Source: Fluviicola sp. XM-24bin1 (lineage in GTDB: Bacteria; Bacteroidota; Bacteroidia; Flavobacteriales_D; Crocinitomicaceae). From it: a stretch of DNA of 64,000 nt. The stretch covers positions 312,588 through 376,587 of the forward strand of contig QCWI01000001.1 of the NCBI GenBank assembly GCA_003149635.1, given 5' to 3'. Shown piece by piece: positions 44,689-56,154 of the stretch. The position numbers and the translations under genes were made by a program. The notes under the pieces were generated by a model. The model saw only the letters and a program-made list of their open reading frames with translations, did not search any database and had not been told where the DNA came from. Each line of letters starts with the position of its first letter. Positions within the stretch are counted from its first letter, which is position 1.

Positions 44689-44836
44689 AAGTATTTATAT
44701 ATCAATCTGTTATAATGCTATAGTGTTCGTTTCCATACTATAAGGAAGCCCTAACATTCCGTTGGGAAATTCTGATAGCAATGCCGCACTTTCCACGAAT
44801 AATTTAGATGCAGTTCTCATATAAAAATTATTCAAA

Positions 44837-46477
44837 ATGGAAAAGTTATTTACAACATTAACCGCAATCATAAGCTTCCTGATTTCATTCAATATGAACG
44901 CGCAGGACAGCAACAACTCCTCAATTTGGGTTACTGTTCAGGAAACCGCCTCAGTCCCATATCTCGAGAATGGGAAACTGGTGTCAGCGGATCCAATCAT
45001 GCAGGAACTCATTGAGGAGTTTTCAATTGTAAAAGTGGAACAGGCATTATCAGCTTCCAGAACAGCATTACTTCAGAAGGTATATGAATTTACGTGCGAC
45101 TGTAATATCGACGCATTGATGCAAACAATGAACGATAGCGAGGCTTTTGCAAACGCGGAACAAGCACCGCAGTACGAATTGCTATCTACCAATCCTGATG
45201 ATTATTTGTTAAACTTCAACGAAGATTATGCGCTGGATTTAATCAATGCCGACGAAGCGTGGTCATATACTACAGGAGACACAGGAATTGTTCTGGGTGT
45301 ATCCGACGGAAGTTTTCTTGGATACCACGAAGATTTGACCGATCAATACGTATCAATGAACAACTCACAAGGAGTTCCAATGTATTATTATTATCACGGG
45401 ACTGCTGTAGCCACGGGGGTTGCTGGTACAACGAACAACGGAATTGGTAAAAGCGCTATCGGTTATGACTGCAAATTGGCACTAAACACCATGGGATACA
45501 ATCAAATGTTGCAGCTGGCATACTCTGGGGTTCGTGTAGTGAATGCAAGTTGGAGTTCAGGATGTTGGCACAGTTCGTATTATCAAATGGTGATCGATGA
45601 AATCAACAATTTAGGTGTAATTGTAGTGGCTGCTGCCGGAAATGGAAGTACTTGCGGTGGGCCCGAAAGTCTCGTATATCCTGCTTCTTTGGATGGAGTG
45701 ATTTCCGTAACAAGTATTGGCCCGAATGACAATCACGAACGTTTGCCAGGAAATCCGGGATCGACGCACCAGCATAATGCTGCGGTTGATTTGTGTGCTC
45801 CAGGATATGATGTGGCTCTAACGGTGGCACCAGGATGGTATTTAACTGGAAACGGAACTAGTTTTGCCGCTCCATATGTGTCTGGAACTATCGGATTGAT
45901 GCTCTCTTTGCGCCCTTGCTTAACTCAAGATGAAGTTTTGAATATTCTGCAGCAAACAGCCGATGATGTGTACGCTGTAAATCATTCGGATTACTACGGA
46001 GTTTTGGGCGCAGGACGATTAAATGCGGGTGCGGCGCTGGAATACATTTCAAATATGGTTCCTTGCGAAGAACTTCCAACCACGCCGACAGTCGTTGGAG
46101 CGGGTGTCGGATTTATGTCTGTAAACAATAATGTTGCGCCTATGCAGCCATTCGCGTCTAGTGAGTTGTCGTATGAAGATGCTGCACATGCCGTTCGCTC
46201 AGCAATGACGGAGGAAGAAACCCCACGCTTGTCGCAAAATGAATTTGAAGCGATGGCGTATCCGAACCCTACGAATGAAGCAACATTGGTGCAATGGAAT
46301 CAAGAAATCGATGCTGAGATACAAGTGATAGATGCAACTGGCGCAGTTATTCAGAATGATGTCATCAGTAGCACACGATTAACGAAAGAAATCCAGCTGG
46401 AGCAAAAAGGAATGTACCTCGTACGATTCGTAAAAGACGGCCAATTGCTCTGGTCTGAAAAAGTCATAAAACTTTAA
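44837..46477 (+). CDS. S8 serine protease with T9SS C-terminal sorting domain
   Basis: 546 residues. Signal peptide to SFNMNAQD, then a prodomain-like region. The catalytic triad is visible: Asp in LGVSDGSF, His in YYHGTAVATGVAG and Ser in GNGTSFAAPYVSG. The oxyanion Asn is probably in AAAGNGSTCGGP. The last 75 residues are a T9SS sorting domain (EAMAYPNPTNEATLVQW to LWSEKVIKL). It should be secreted and cell-attached or released outside. A close paralogue with the same architecture lies at 54496. The flanking gap of 240 bp upstream shows no clear promoter. Confidence 0.94.
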   Translation: MEKLFTTLTAIISFLISFNMNAQDSNNSSIWVTVQETASVPYLENGKLVSADPIMQELIEEFSIVKVEQALSASRTALLQKVYEFTCDCNIDALMQTMNDSEAFANAEQAPQYELLSTNPDDYLLNFNEDYALDLINADEAWSYTTGDTGIVLGVSDGSFLGYHEDLTDQYVSMNNSQGVPMYYYYHGTAVATGVAGTTNNGIGKSAIGYDCKLALNTMGYNQMLQLAYSGVRVVNASWSSGCWHSSYYQMVIDEINNLGVIVVAAAGNGSTCGGPESLVYPASLDGVISVTSIGPNDNHERLPGNPGSTHQHNAAVDLCAPGYDVALTVAPGWYLTGNGTSFAAPYVSGTIGLMLSLRPCLTQDEVLNILQQTADDVYAVNHSDYYGVLGAGRLNAGAALEYISNMVPCEELPTTPTVVGAGVGFMSVNNNVAPMQPFASSELSYEDAAHAVRSAMTEEETPRLSQNEFEAMAYPNPTNEATLVQWNQEIDAEIQVIDATGAVIQNDVISSTRLTKEIQLEQKGMYLVRFVKDGQLLWSEKVIKL

Positions 46478-46533: not shown

Positions 46534-47277
46534 TCATTGTTTCAAAATTCGCATCAATTGCTCTTTCTTTCTGATGGAAACGGGAACGATACTTCCGTCC
46601 GTCATTAAGAGTTGTCCACCTGAGCCACGAAGGTATTTTTCGATGTGCTGAATATTGACAATATTCGATTTGTGCACTTTCAAAAAGTTGTTTCGAATCA
46701 GAATATCTTCGAATTCTTTCATCGATTTGGAAACCAAAATGTTCTTTTTGGAAGCGAGATGAAATCTGCATTAAGCGCGTTCTGCTTCGCAATAAATCAA
46801 CTCGGAATAGGGAATCATCTCCAATCCAGATTCGCTGGGAACCGCCAATTTATCGAAATTAACCGTCGAATTTAAATATTCTTCGGAACCGTTTCCTAGA
46901 ATTTTCTTGCGTTTTTCAAGTCGCATCCGAACCGCCGTAAGAAGCTCATTATGGTCGAAGGGTTTCAAGATGTAATCGTCCGCCCCGAGACTCATGCCTG
47001 TTCGAATATCCTTCGGTTCCACCTTAGCCGTTAGGAATAAAAAAGGAGGGACAATTTCATCCTTCATGCGCTCGTTAATGGCTCCTAGAAGTTCAAAACC
47101 GTTCATTTCAGGCATGCTTACGTCGCAAACCACAATGTCGGGCAGATCATCTACGATATTTTGATATCCTTCCTTGCCATCTTTAGCACTGGAAACTTCG
47201 TACCCGGCGAGATCAAAAATCTCCTCCAGAGTTTCACGAACTCCTGCTTCGTCTTCAACTATCAGTATTTTCTCCAT
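46534..47277 (-). pseudogene. LytTR-type response regulator interrupted by an in-frame TAA
   Basis: Read through, this is a 247-residue regulator. The receiver has LIVEDEAGVRETL, phosphoacceptor Asp in IVVCDVSMPEMNG and the Lys in YILKPFDH. A linker with LAVPSESGLEMIPYSELIYCEAERA comes next. The LytTR DNA-binding domain follows: FHLASKKNILVSKSMKEFED, FLKVHKSNIVNIQHIEKYLRG, GQLLMTDGSIVPVS. TAA at 46771-46773 sits inside the first LytTR strand; the position normally holds Tyr or another residue (ERAYCRF-like), and TAT to TAA is one change. The truncated product keeps the receiver but cannot bind DNA. The start overlaps the large kinase gene by 23 bp. Confidence 0.85.
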
Positions 47278-50084: not shown

Positions 50085-50531
50085 TTATTTCAGTTGCGAT
50101 TCATTTAACAATAGACAGTAGAAACCAAGTTCTCTGACACAGGTGGAAAAATTCTCGTAATCCACCGGTTTTACGATGTAGCTATTTGCTTCCAGGTCAT
50201 TGGCATCCAGTCGATCGTTATGTTCTCGACTGGTGGTTAGCGCCACTGTGGGAATGGTTTTGGTTTGTGGATTACTTCGAACCGCCTCAATTACTTCCAA
50301 TCCGCTTACCTTCGGCATTTTAAGATCCAGCAAGGTCAATTTGGGGTTTACCACATTTTTGCGATCGGAGAACTGACCTTCGCAGAACAAGAAATCAAGA
50401 GCTTCCTGACCGTCTCTAACCCATTTAATATTATTGAGCAACTTGTGTTTTTCAAGTGCCATTAGAGCCAATTCGGCGTCTTCTTGACGATCCTCAACCA
50501 GTAATAGATCAATGGTATTTTCTTTGTTCAT
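50085..50531 (-). CDS. Single-domain response regulator (Rcp1-like)
   Basis: 148 residues from the ATG at 50531 (MNKENTIDLLLVEDRQEDAE). It is a receiver without an output domain: acidic pair in VEDRQED, phosphoacceptor Asp in LTLLDLKMPKVSG, LTTSREHND, Lys in SYIVKPVDY. Rcp1-type receivers take phosphate from phytochrome-like or other kinases. Here the obvious partner is the kinase remnant directly upstream, and the hybrid kinase follows eight bases downstream. A frameshift fuses the remnant to this frame without a stop between, which could produce a 355-residue read-through, but the internal ATG is the natural start. Confidence 0.88.
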   Translation of the reverse strand: MNKENTIDLLLVEDRQEDAELALMALEKHKLLNNIKWVRDGQEALDFLFCEGQFSDRKNVVNPKLTLLDLKMPKVSGLEVIEAVRSNPQTKTIPTVALTTSREHNDRLDANDLEANSYIVKPVDYENFSTCVRELGFYCLLLNESQLK

Positions 50532-50542
50532 GACTAGTGTTT

Positions 50543-51077
50543 TTAAAAGGGTAAAAAGAATTGGAATGTGGCACCTTTGCCAGGCTCTCCAACTGCGGAA
50601 AATGGTACCATTATGTTTGTTAATAGTTCGTTGGACATTGGCAAGACCTACACCCGTACCATCGAACTCTTGTTGCGAATGAAGTCTTTGGAAAATGCCA
50701 TAGAGTTTCTGGTAATGACGCATATCAAAACCGCTTCCATTATCCTTGATAAAATAGGTGACCCCAGTACGATCGACCTCTGCCCAAATCGAGATTTCGG
50801 GATTTTCTTTTTTCTGAGAGTACTTGAAGGCATTATCAATGAGGTTTTGCCAGATTACTCCCATCATGGTTTGATCAGAGGAAATGTCCGGCAGATTCTC
50901 TTCAATGTGGGATAGGGCCTTTTTTTGTTTACCTTTCATATAGGTAAGCGTTTTTTCACCCTTAGTGAGTAGCCTTTCTTTATGGTTCGCAGCAAGAATA
51001 AATCCAAATAGTAGGAAGGTACTTGCAAACAAACAAAAAATGGCAAAGCCTTTTACCCCATACCGATGCTTGTTCAT
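50543..51077 (-). pseudogene. Degraded sensor histidine kinase (internal deletion and frameshift)
   Basis: Starting at the ATG 51077, an N-terminal membrane helix (GFAIFCLFASTFLLFGFILA) leads after only about 30 residues into the ATPase domain: VIWQNLIDNAFKYS (N-box), DNGSGFDM (G1), GTGVGLANVQRTI (G2). The expected sensor domain, HAMP and HisKA with its phosphoacceptor His are missing, so an in-frame internal deletion is inferred. Near 50597, one extra base shifts the frame; removing it restores AVGEPGKGATFQFFLPF and a stop at 50543-50545, just before the receiver gene. It cannot autophosphorylate. A 20-bp tandem duplication lies directly upstream. Confidence 0.75.
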
Positions 51078-51082
51078 TGAGT

Positions 51083-51122
51083 TCATGCAGTAGAGTTTGA
51101 AGTCATGCAGTAGAGTTTGAAG
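51083..51122. repeat. Perfect 20-bp tandem duplication
   Basis: TCATGCAGTAGAGTTTGAAG occurs twice in direct succession (51083-51102 and 51103-51122), at the start of the degraded kinase gene. It creates an extra in-frame head of the reading frame. It looks like a fresh replication-slippage event. Confidence 0.9.
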
Positions 51123-51420
51123 GTTGTTCAGCGCAAACGAAAAGATAGTCAATTCTTTTGATATGTATAAAATTACACAGTTTTAGCGCATTAAACCAAT
51201 TAAATTCATACTTTGTGATAATTAACATTTAAGTATCTATATATCAATGGTGTAAGGGTGTTTTACTCTTGCCTTTGCGAGAGATAAAGGTACATCTATA
51301 AATGGGGGGATAGTTTAATCAATATGTGATCTGCTCGATTAACTAGTGCAATTGGTAAATAAAACATCGTTTTTGCTCGAATAAGTGAAATTGCGTATTG
51401 ACAAGTAGTTGACTGTGAAT

Positions 51421-51592
51421 AGAAAAGCCCCAAAATCAATGGGGCTGTACCTAACCAATAACTACTAAAATTATACTATAAAAGCCTTAGAAACGCGATT
51501 CGTCTTTTTTTACCTAATTACTCTAACGGCAGCGTTTCTAATTCCAAAGGTTATGATTCATCTTTGATTGAAACAATGACTTCATCCCAACG
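51421..51592 (-). ncRNA. Candidate structured ncRNA, copy 1
   Basis: On the minus strand, TTGGGATGAAG leads into a small hairpin (TTCAATC-AAA-GATGAA), a stem AGAAACGC/GCGTTTCT, then CTTTTATAGTATAATTTTAG, TAGTTATTGGTTAGGTAC and a strong terminator (AGCCCC-loop-GGGGCT, TTTTCT). The order and many words match the second copy at 51638-51840. There is no coding potential. Two diverged copies with a conserved stem, each with its own terminator, support a real RNA family; I cannot name it. Confidence 0.6.
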
Positions 51593-51637
51593 CTTTGTTT
51601 TCATTTCCGAACGTCGATCTTACTGAAATGCGTGCAT

Positions 51638-51840
51638 AAAAAAAGTCCCGAATCTCGATAGGTCTCGATGACTTGGGACTTTTGTAACTAACCAATAAAC
51701 TACTAACTATACACTATAAAGTCTTAGAAACGATACCAAGCAACTACAAAACCTAACCTAAGCAACAAACGTGTTTCGTACCGTTTCTGGTTACAAGTAC
51801 GGGATAAACTCCCGTTTCAAGGAGCGGCTTCATCCCAATG
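51638..51840 (-). ncRNA. Candidate structured ncRNA, copy 2
   Basis: On the minus strand, TTGGGATGAAGCC leads into a hairpin (ACGGGA-GTTTA-TCCCGT), a stem AGAAACG/CGTTTCT, then AAGACTTTATAGTGTATAG, TAGTAGTTTATTGGTTAG and a terminator (AAAAGTCCC/GGGACTTTTTTT). Compared with copy 1 the arms of the first hairpin are different in sequence but still pair, which is covariation-like. It lies between the terminators of fumC and copy 1. Confidence 0.6.
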
Positions 51841-51881
51841 CATGGAATTACCTTCCCAACGCGAAAAATTTCTTCCAAAAG

Positions 51882-51978: not shown

Positions 51979-53388
51979 TCAAGAAGTCGTTTTCATACTT
52001 CCAATCATGTCTTCAGGACGCACCCACTCGTCAAACTGTTCGTTAGTGACCAAATCCAAAGCAATGGCTGCTTGACGTAAAGTCGTTCCTTCCTTATGTG
52101 CCTTTTTAGCAATCGCAGCGGCATTTTCATAACCGATGTGCGTATTTAATGCCGTTACGAGCATCAATGAGTTTTCCAATTTCTCTTTGATGACAGCATC
52201 GTTCGGAGCAATTCCAACAGCACAGTTATCATTGAATGACAAACATGCATCACCCAACAAACGTGCAGATGTCAGTACATTATATACCATCATTGGTTTG
52301 AAGACATTCAATTCGAAGTGTCCTGTCATTCCTCCGGTTGCGACCGCAACATCGTTACCAATAACTTGTGCACATACCATCGTCAATGCTTCACACTGAG
52401 TTGGGTTCACTTTTCCTGGCATGATGGAAGATCCCGGTTCATTTTCTGGAATTACAATTTCACCAATTCCACTACGTGGCCCTGAACACAACATTCGAAT
52501 ATCGTTTCCGATTTTCATCAAGCTTACAGCCAATTGTTTCAATGCTCCGTGTGTTTCTACCATAGCATCGTGCGCTGCTAATGCTTCGAATTTGTTTTCA
52601 GCGGTTACCATCGGCTGGTTCGAATACGTTGCAATTTTCTTTGCTACCAATTCGGCGTATCCCTCCGGTGTATTTAGTCCTGTTCCAACGGCCGTTCCTC
52701 CAAGGGCTAATTCAGAAAGGTGTGCCAATGTATTTTTAAGCGCTTTCAATCCATGATCCAATTGAGAAACGTATCCTGAAAATTCTTGACCGAGGCTCAA
52801 TGGCGTAGCATCCATAAAGTGCGTACGTCCGATTTTTACCACGTCCATGTACTTCACCGACTTTTCATGCAACGTATTTCGAAGCGTTTCAATTTTCGGG
52901 ATCGTGTCCTCTACAATTTGCTTGTAGCTCGCAATGTGCATGGCAGTAGGGAACGTATCGTTTGAAGACTGAGACTTGTTCACGTCATCATTCGGGTGGA
53001 TGAATTTATCGGAATCCAACAAAGACCCACCGTTAATTACGTGAGCACGGTTCGCAATAACTTCGTTCATATTCATGTTCGATTGCGTCCCAGAACCTGT
53101 TTGCCAAATCACCAAAGGGAACTGATCATCCAATTTCCCTTCCAGAATTTCGTCACATACTTTCCCAATCAACTCCGCTTTTTCTTTTGGTAAAACACCC
53201 AATTCAGCGTTTGTTTCCGCCGCGGATTTCTTCAAAATCGCGAAGGCTTTTGTTACCTCCAACGGCATGCGCATGTTGGCACCACCAATTTTGAAATTGT
53301 TGCGGGATCTTTGTGTTTGTGCACCCCAATACTTGTCTGTGGGCACTTGTACCTCGCCCATCGTATCTTTCTCAATTCTGTATTCCAT
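51979..53388 (-). CDS. fumC: Fumarate hydratase, class II
   Basis: 469 residues, cytoplasmic. It interconverts fumarate and malate in the TCA cycle and needs no iron-sulfur cluster. Family blocks: [18 protein letters not shown], the [13 protein letters not shown] block, [20 protein letters not shown], and the superfamily signature [17 protein letters not shown]. The ATG at 53388 ([16 protein letters not shown]) is the usual start; the longer frame to 53421 is rejected. A terminator for the upstream tonB-like gene separates the two. Confidence 0.97.
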
Positions 53389-53422
53389 CGATTGCAATTT
53401 TATGGCCCTAAATTTAGGCAAT

Positions 53423-54495: not shown

Positions 54496-56154
54496 ATGAA
54501 GCCCGGAAGCTATCGTGCTGTATTGTTTGTATTGCTCTTATTGTGCCTGCCTCAGGTGACTTTGGCGCAGTCAAATGAAGGAACTGTGAAGGTTTGGCTG
54601 TCTATCGATAGAGAAGAATTGGTACCTTATCTAGAGAACGATCAATGGATTTCTGATGATGCGGAAATGATGAGAATCTTTGAGGATTTTCAAGTGCGCC
54701 ACTGCGATCGTGCTTTTCCATCAAGTAGAAAGGAAGCACTTCTTAAAGTCTATGAGATTCATGGTTCAGGAGATTTTGATAAGTTAAAATCGGCCTTCGA
54801 AAAAATTAATTTTTGTCATGGAATTGAACCGGCGCCTGAATACGAATTATTGAGTACCAACACCTTTCCGGATGACTATAATCTAACATTTGCCAATGAT
54901 TACGCTTTGGATTTGATCAATGCAGAGCAGGCGTGGGAGTATTCAACTGGTGACCCAAATACTGTAATCGGAATTGTAGACGGTGCATTTTACACCAATC
55001 ACGAAGAGCTAGTTGGAGCTGCTGTTTTCACACAAAATCCTGTTTTTGCGTCACAATACTTTTATCAACACGGGAATGCAGTGGCAGTTGCGGCAGCGGG
55101 GAACACGAACAATGGAATGGGTAAAAGTTCCATTGGATACGATTGCAGCCTTGCCCTCATTAATATGGGGTACAATGAGATGTTAGATCTTTGCTATCAA
55201 GGGGTGCGAGTCATTAACGTAAGCTGGTCGTCCGGATGTCAAAACAACATTTACTTCGAGAAAGTAATGGATGAATTGTTTGAAAACGATGTAATCGTTG
55301 TAGCTTCTGCAGGAAACGGGAATACTTGTGGTGGGCCCTTCGGTGTGGTGTATCCGGCTTCATTGGAAGGCGTGATTTCGGTGACCAGTGTCGGCCCACA
55401 GGACAACCATGAATTGGTCATTGGAAATCCGAACACAACGCATCAAAGCAATCAGTACGTAGACATTTGTGCACCTGGATATCATGTTGCTGGGACGCCA
55501 ATGCCGGGTTATTACCTTACTGGAAATGGTTCTAGTTTTGCCGCACCGTACGTAACGGGTACGATTGGTCTAATGTTATCACTTCGCCCTTGCCTGAGCA
55601 GAGAAGAAGTGATTGAGATTTTGAGTATTACCGCCGCAGATGTCTATGCTTCCAATTCCACGGATCTCGCTGGACTTTTAGGAGCCGGACGATTGGATGC
55701 TGGAGCAGCATTAGAGTATGTGGCGAATTATGAATGTCAGCCATCAACACCAACTTTAGTATTTGACGGTACGATTCAAGATCTTTCGGTTTTCAATCCG
55801 AAGCCAAATTCAGGGAATAATCCGAATGTGAATGGAACACAGCAGTATTTAGGTCAGGTTGCTGGAATTCATGAGACGCAGAAACTAGAAACACAACTTT
55901 TCCCGAATCCGAGTAATGGAACATTCCAAATTACATGGAACGTTGTAAATCCTGAACAAATTATTGTCTTGGATGGAGCGGGCCAAATCATTCAAGAAGT
56001 AGCTGTAGTTCAATGAACGAATAACATGGAAAGATCTTTGGATCAAACGGGTATTTACTTTGTTCAGTTCATGGAGAATGCTACCATCGTTGCCAATGAG
56101 AAAGTAGTTGTCTTCAAGGCTGATCGGCCTTCCAACTTATCATCAAATTGTTAA
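54496..56154 (+). pseudogene. S8 serine protease whose T9SS sorting domain is cut by an in-frame TGA
   Basis: The first 506 residues are a signal peptide, prodomain-like region and a full S8 domain: Asp in IGIVDGAF, His in YQHGNAVAVAAAG (HGT is changed to HGN) and Ser in GNGSSFAAPYVTG. The T9SS sorting domain starts at QLFPNPSNGTFQITWN, but after VAVVQ the frame meets TGA at 56014-56016. It continues in frame as TNNMERSLDQTGIYFVQFME and ends at 56154; this tail is the missing half of the sorting domain (compare MYLVRFVKDGQLLWSEKVIKL-type ends). The protease may fold but probably cannot be sorted through T9SS. Highly similar to the gene at 44837. Confidence 0.82.

Follow-up and report, generated by a model that had tools for sequence, protein, structure and literature searches.

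Two tandem candidate small-RNA genes with a probable LytTR-type activator site in a Fluviicola genome

Two tandem units beside fumC

The window analysed here, a stretch of 64,000 nucleotides from Fluviicola sp. XM-24bin1 (contig QCWI01000001.1), carries two units on the minus strand, at 51861-51638 and 51613-51421 with their promoters included, which lie between fumC and a histidine-kinase operon. A first-pass annotation had described them as two tandem, diverged candidates for structured small RNAs (sRNAs), and we found its landmarks where it had placed them: TTGGGATGAAG is present in two exact copies in the window (51828-51838 and 51580-51590), an AGAAACG/CGTTTCT stem and one terminator are found in each unit, and the AU-rich TTTATAGT...TAGTAGTTTATTGGTTAG block is exact in unit 1 and has one-base length differences in unit 2. 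When the two units are aligned, 109 of 180 ungapped columns are identical. The features of the locus are listed below; box 1 and box 2 are the two halves of a direct repeat, and G018 and G025 are two other genomes of the genus.

44760-44768, plus strand: box 2 (CGTTGGGAA) in front of the S8 subtilase gene, followed by a -7 element at the usual spacing; box 1 is degenerate
44837-46477: S8 subtilase gene, beyond the LytTR gene as seen from the array
46534-47277, minus strand: LytTR response regulator of the adjacent operon, the candidate regulator; in-frame stop within the LytTR domain in the window's genome
47255-50077, minus strand: HK2, a receiver/PAS/GAF histidine kinase of the same operon (domains taken from the G025 counterpart)
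50085-51152, minus strand: ORF with a receiver and the remnant of HK1 (by eye), of which the ATPase end and a short N-terminal part are left; HK1 has 1095 aa in G018 and G025
51421-51446, minus strand: intrinsic terminator of unit 2, found by a simple terminator scan
51421-51541, minus strand: predicted RNA of unit 2, about 120 nt
51489-51496, minus strand: unit 2 stem, 3' arm (GCGTTTCT)
51532-51539, minus strand: unit 2 stem, 5' arm (AGAAACGC)
51545-51553, minus strand: unit 2 -7 element, TAACCTTTG
51584-51592, minus strand: unit 2 promoter box 2 (CGTTGGGAT)
51605-51613, minus strand: unit 2 promoter box 1 (CGTTCGGAA)
51638-51683, minus strand: intrinsic terminator of unit 1, missed by the simple terminator scan
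51638-51790, minus strand: predicted RNA of unit 1, about 150 nt, from promoter geometry and terminator
51684-51725, minus strand: unit 1 C-poor linker with TATAGT...TAGTAGTTTATTGGTTAG
51726-51736, minus strand: unit 1 conserved stem, 3' arm (GTATCGTTTCT)
51778-51788, minus strand: unit 1 conserved stem, 5' arm (AGAAACGGTAC)
51794-51799, minus strand: unit 1 -7-like element TACTTG, positioned as in the other promoters
51832-51840, minus strand: unit 1 promoter box 2 (CATTGGGAT), 21 bp after box 1; includes the TTGGGAT of the first-pass annotation
51853-51861, minus strand: unit 1 promoter box 1 (CGTTGGGAA)
51979-53421, minus strand: fumC, the conserved neighbour upstream of the array

The units lack a coding frame, as had been stated: the longest stop-free runs are 18-46 codons across the seven units known from three genomes, and 25 and 18 codons in the window's two. 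That they belong to no known Rfam family was also borne out, as an Rfam scan of the window at the gathering threshold returned two tRNAs elsewhere and nothing else. In a relaxed scan none of 4227 Rfam families came near its gathering score, the best in the region reaching 18.4 bits against a cut-off of 114.

The neighbouring fumC is 98-99% identical to its counterparts in G018 and G025 (over the 133-aa part compared) and 54-69% identical to those of the other matching members of the genus. Beyond G018 and one MAG (87%), its best named hits are in the Cytophagales (Ekhidna lutea, 86%). This pattern suggests horizontal replacement of fumC. Also near fumC, a subtilase gene is divided over two frames in G018 (L273:1981-3627, minus strand).

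A family found in three genomes

Sequence search and covariance modelling both found homologues beyond this locus, within three genomes of the genus. A 431-bp stretch compared with 60 genomes, its own included, gave strong matches in G025 (E 4e-17) and G018 (E 7e-14) only; the next ones were short (about 20-50 bp, starting at E 1e-4) and were not accepted, and neither was one of E 3e-4 in another blastn comparison. The arrays contain two, two and three units in the window's genome, G018 and G025, respectively, and the order fumC, array, histidine-kinase operon is the same in all three. Reading of the loci showed that every G025 and G018 unit has a stem, a linker and a terminator after its box pair.

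A first covariance model, built from three units (two of G025 and one of G018), recovered the four held-out units with E-values of 1e-13 to 3e-8 in 9.7 kb; an opposite-strand match at E 0.016 was weak and was not accepted. A second model, built from all seven units of the three genomes, found those seven and no convincing further copy in the genomes of the family or the order. Among 240 family genomes it gave three strong matches and one weak one (G227, E 0.011), and among 399 evenly drawn order genomes the same four plus G381 at E 0.062. We accepted neither the G227 match, which is located after a coding end and by eye includes a terminator-like repeat, nor the weak G381 match. Stricter filters were applied to these large genome sets, and distant members may have escaped detection. 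When 80 fumC loci were scored with the model, the sole strong hits were the two G018 units, and four further hits, at E 1.3 or more, were not accepted. The window's genome contains no further copy (blastn at E of 0.001 or below; final model), and phage and plasmid records gave no match at E 1e-5 in distant mode. In the sets searched, the RNA family is confined to three genomes, and we rejected a wide distribution on this basis.

Architecture of the predicted RNAs

The 5' stem, counted as ten pairs, consists of two helices that are 96.4 and 92.9% paired across the units. The whole structure, terminator included, is 86.6% paired compared with 80.7% in shuffles, none of 500 of which reached the observed value; its covariation score was reached by 5 of 500 shuffles, and its three pairs changed on both sides were matched by 30 of 500, all in an alignment fitted to the model's own structure and thus biased in that structure's favour. 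The stem is followed by a variable loop, a C-poor linker and the terminator, and the C content over the RNA minus its terminator is 7-13%. Fold z-scores range from -1.8 to -5.4 for the five units that were folded with the 5' stem. The linker occurs in two types: five units have TTTATAGT-TAGTAGTTTATTGGTTAG or a close variant, and a single unit in each of G018 and G025 has GTGTTTAGCGTAGTTTAG.

By sequence, the seven units in three genomes have the arrangement of multicopy siblings, each with its own promoter and terminator. It might be argued that they are instead cis-acting leaders, attenuators or riboswitch-like elements, of the downstream kinase operon, as they lie upstream of it in the same orientation in all three genomes. 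We regard this as highly improbable, because every unit comes with boxes and a terminator of its own, a series of two or three complete units is hard to reconcile with a single leader, and the last G025 unit ends about 300 bp ahead of the kinase start codon.

A direct repeat at a fixed distance from a -7 element

The units carry a direct repeat of 21-bp period whose second half overlaps TTGGGATGAAG. In the seven units, the distance from box 2 to the end of TACTTG, TACTTA or TAACCTTTG is 38-39 bp, and the AGAAACG arm follows 5-6 nt later. The boxes of the third G025 unit are weak, with more than three mismatches to the unit-derived pattern and a score of 18.2 against 21.8-28.9 for the others. 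This pattern, CGTTRGGAA-N15-TGGGATGA, was found with at most one mismatch at eight places in the three genomes, six of them sRNA units; the remaining two are within a 718-aa ORF and before the His_kinase/LytTR pair of G025 contig C17, where another box pair points towards the divergent receiver/SpoIIE gene.

The pattern YKTTNGGAA-N12-YKTTNGGAA had 44 hits in the three genomes compared with 18 for a reversed control, with no enrichment in G018 alone (7 against 6), and CGTTNGGAA-N12-CGTTNGGAA had 58 hits compared with 4 across 34 genomes of the genus, being present in 21 of them. A single 21-bp tandem array of G020 (L286, C24:57085-57345, minus strand) accounts for nine of the 58. The array has about a dozen 21-bp units, most with a (C/T)G(T/C)TNGGAA half-site; a script found no ORF over 150 aa on its strand, and it looks like a multiplied regulator site.

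An element resembling TAnnTTTG, the -7 element of Bacteroidota promoters, starts 30-32 bp after box 2 at 15 of 26 sites outside ORFs, compared with 1 of 26 inside; the other 11 sites outside ORFs have no match, and every other three-base bin holds four or fewer. A match required 5 of 6 letters, with two or three free positions. The recount covered 62 sites from 30 and 24 loci, a subset of the 44 and 58 pattern hits, with the nine of the G020 array and one sRNA unit set aside and ORFs defined as at least 150 aa on either strand. At hand-picked sites of protein genes, 17 of 24 (a set that omits L289) had the element, compared with a mean of 2.0 and a maximum of 9 in 2000 mononucleotide shuffles. 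These data suggest that the sRNA family has an activator-type promoter, a prediction that we consider well supported.

The promoter bears on two earlier claims, namely that base changes in a first hairpin (hairpin 1) preserve its pairing and that an RNA of 170-200 nt starts at TTGGGATGAAG. Neither could be upheld. The hairpin-1 regions of the seven units fold with energies of -16.4, -12.8, -8.8, -7.4, -0.8, 0.0 and -5.7 kcal/mol and with differing pairings, and 41.8% of their pair cells hold standard pairs compared with 41.5% in shuffles (seven units, three genomes), on which basis we rejected hairpin 1 as a conserved structure. A single longer RNA running from TTGGGATGAAG, with hairpin 1 as a selected structure, would fit the stability of the hairpin in unit 1 and the first G025 unit (-16.4 and -12.8 kcal/mol) and the fact that GGGATGAA is mostly conserved across the seven units; we nevertheless hold it to be very unlikely, since the pairing is lost across those same units and TTGGGATG overlaps half of a repeat that is also seen before protein genes, with its distance to the -7 element fixed. 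Because the repeat precedes protein genes too, at a fixed distance from the -7 element, we place TTGGGATGAAG and hairpin 1 in the promoter, where they are most likely promoter DNA, and infer a shorter RNA of about 120-150 nt that would begin at the AGAAACG stem, continue through the C-poor linker and end in the terminator.

Together, synteny, the recovery of held-out units and the 5' stem argue for the original view of tandem, diverged sRNA genes outside Rfam, from which the extent of the RNA and the hairpin-1 argument have to be removed. The two units are most likely sRNA genes of a family absent from Rfam. A limited search of the open-access literature returned no earlier report of such a family or of a LytTR link, and this clade-restricted family of sibling sRNA genes, with its predicted transcription and function, appears to be new.

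Genes that share the repeat

The box pair is also found in front of protein genes. A small secreted protein of 113-115 aa (orthologues assigned by eye; L157:1079-1423, minus strand; L155:1613-1960, plus strand; L162:1080-1421, minus strand) has the pair 78-83 bp upstream of its start in all three genomes, and the protein of the window's genome has no Pfam match. The subtilase gene adjacent to the LytTR gene carries the pair in G025 and a weaker pair in the window, and a subtilase gene of G016 carries it too. At 57-71 bp upstream, the pair precedes the genes for an IgGFc_binding-domain protein (L154), a Calx-beta protein with a type-IX-type sorting tail (L159), a protein with no Pfam match (L183), a receiver protein (L175) and a PAS/HisKA kinase (L160), the last of these sites also being within an opposite 407-aa ORF. 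A polysaccharide-export protein of G003 (L289) carries the pair as well, and L283 of G010 is similar by eye only.

A LytTR protein as the likely regulator

LytTR sites are described as two direct or inverse repeats of 9-11 nt with spacers of 11-13 nt (PMC4847170), and for one class of LytTR systems the repeats are said to lie directly upstream of the core promoter, mostly with 12 bp between them (PMC6193735). The direct repeat of the units, with its 21-bp period, 12-bp spacer and position upstream of the core promoter, matches this layout. LytTR matches number 12 in the window's genome and 12 and 16 in the other two (40 in total). In G025, the operon downstream of the array ends with an intact LytTR regulator. 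Its closest relative among the 30 others compared (of the 40 matches) is the LytTR regulator encoded in the C17 operon, with 35% identity overall and 48% in the DNA-binding part; the window's own LytTR was represented in this comparison by its G025 counterpart. The C17 operon, encoding a His_kinase/LytTR pair, carries the box pair in its own promoter. At L099:1440-1660, divergent promoters face a His_kinase/LytTR operon and a receiver/SpoIIE gene, each with its own outward-facing box pair.

The window's genome has intact boxes, yet its LytTR gene is interrupted by an in-frame stop in the DNA-binding domain and most of HK1 is missing, so another LytTR protein may act on them or the system may be decaying. 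The G018 contig stops before the position of the LytTR gene. It is conceivable that the sRNA genes are real and that a regulator of another family binds the direct repeat: the LytTR regulator is itself a prediction, the local gene is interrupted in the window's genome, and, as LytTR sites are described as having no common consensus (PMC4847170), the box sequence itself cannot prove LytTR. We consider this rather unlikely, given that a 21-bp period with a 12-bp spacer is the LytTR layout and that the regulator encoded by a His_kinase/LytTR operon behind such a pair resembles the array-side one. LytTR is the likely family of the regulator.

Our favoured interpretation, which we think is probably correct, is that the locus holds two sibling sRNA genes switched on by a LytTR regulator along with secreted proteins, a subtilase and signalling genes. 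By sequence comparison, each unit has the activator-type site CGTTNGGAA-N12-CNTTGGGAT and a -7 element whose end lies 38-39 bp from box 2; 5 nt past that element a 5' stem-loop (AGAAACG.../...CGTTTCT) begins, followed by the linker and the intrinsic terminator. Histidine kinases, for example those of the adjoining operon, would probably feed a LytTR-family response regulator, and its binding to the direct repeat would turn on the sRNAs together with the secreted-protein, subtilase and signalling genes, much as AgrA acts on RNAIII. At the post-transcriptional level, the sRNAs would use the exposed linker to pair with mRNAs or to bind an RNA-binding protein.

Two routes by which the RNAs may act

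Base pairing, in which the linker would repress or activate mRNAs near their start codons in the manner of GibS and FopS, is compatible with the LytTR-sRNA model, and we hold it tentatively as a reasonable possibility. When 53 window genes were screened for duplexes in an exploratory way, the best-ranking start region was that of the subtilase gene at 54496, with 9 of 200 and 2 of 200 shuffles of this region equal or better for the two window units, but this is one top hit of 53 genes and its significance is per gene, before correction for 53. The G025 orthologue of the gene was equalled or bettered by 23, 7 and 73 of 200 shuffles, and in G018, where the orthologue is apparently broken, the figures were 101 and 137 of 200. 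For the other subtilase gene they were 183 and 169 of 200 in the window's genome and 197, 23 and 6 in G025. The target screen is a weak lead, and mRNA pairing is the more conservative option of the two.

The other option is that the RNAs are decoys for an RRM protein, comparable to CsrB and RsmY but with an RRM protein in the place of CsrA, such that the LytTR regulator would raise the decoy and titrate the RRM protein off its mRNAs. The linker and loop are UAG-rich. The motif (G/A)U(1-3)AGU occurs 34 times in the seven units compared with 15.7 +/- 3.1 in dinucleotide shuffles (maximum 25, n=500), and its density is 4.7 per 100 nt in the units versus 0.18 in the window. The units are not independent, and three of the seven show no enrichment, the fractions of shuffles reaching the count of each unit being 0.032, 0.488, 0, 0.004, 0.18, 0.002 and 0.392. 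Musashi-1, a eukaryotic RRM protein, is described as recognizing (G/A)U1-3AGU and UAG (PMC12342889), and RbpB of Bacteroides as binding GUAGGAUA (PMC12119571). Two RRM_1 matches are present in each of the three genomes; one of the two in the window's genome is a protein of 92 aa. The motif enrichment and the RRM_1 proteins make a decoy possible, and we judge it improbable.

Clusters of at least six (G/A)U(1-3)AGU motifs in 110 nt, sought in about 2.0 Mb of overlapping loci, were found in four sRNA units and one conserved intergenic stretch. This stretch, of about 350 bp, lies beside another LytTR gene (L138:1077-1488, plus strand; L142:1022-1488, plus strand; L143:1798-2209, minus strand) and is nearly invariant in three genomes, with a terminator-like repeat first and a GTAGT-rich part. 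It has no Rfam match and is a candidate for another ncRNA.

Discussion

To our knowledge, little is known about how signals reach regulatory RNAs in Bacteroidota. Working from sequence alone, we arrived at a promoter class of the genus, defined by a repeat, its spacing and a -7 element, together with candidate co-regulated genes and a clade-specific sRNA array. This opens the way to binding and reporter tests of which regulators drive Bacteroidota sRNAs, and of whether bacterial RRM proteins have decoy RNAs.

The AgrA/RNAIII system of Staphylococcus and the VirR/VR-RNA system of Clostridium perfringens likewise combine a LytTR-type regulator with a regulatory RNA, a combination that is predicted from sequence here. 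VR-RNA is a target of VirR, and RNAIII is 514 nt long. AgrA is reported to act on P2/P3 and RNAIII, which in S. aureus also encodes a peptide (PMC3673130). The units differ from RNAIII in belonging to another phylum and in forming a series of two or three short siblings where RNAIII is a single RNA.

The csRNAs, Qrr and RsmY/RsmZ are also sets of several related RNAs, each with its own promoter and terminator. Their regulators are CiaR for the csRNAs, LuxO for Qrr and GacA for RsmY/RsmZ. The Cia-dependent sRNAs and the Qrr sRNAs are both mentioned as examples of sRNA families (PMC11697453). Unlike all of these, the units have a LytTR-type site and stand in tandem in one intergenic region; in sequence, the comparison was by Rfam scans only.

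Within the Bacteroidota, Bacteroides is described as lacking Hfq, ProQ and CsrA (PMC12119571), and its RbpB-bound sRNAs FopS and GibS are, like the units, multicopy Bacteroidota sRNAs with an exposed single-stranded part and a terminator (PMC11697453). Their partner RbpB is an RRM protein (PMC11697453), and an RRM protein is a candidate partner here too. FopS is described as a single-stranded 5' stretch plus a terminator, with canonical promoters and a consensus that has no 5' stem-loop (PMC11697453). The units, by comparison with that description (PMC11697453), are set apart by their 5' stem-loop, activator-type site and tandem genes.
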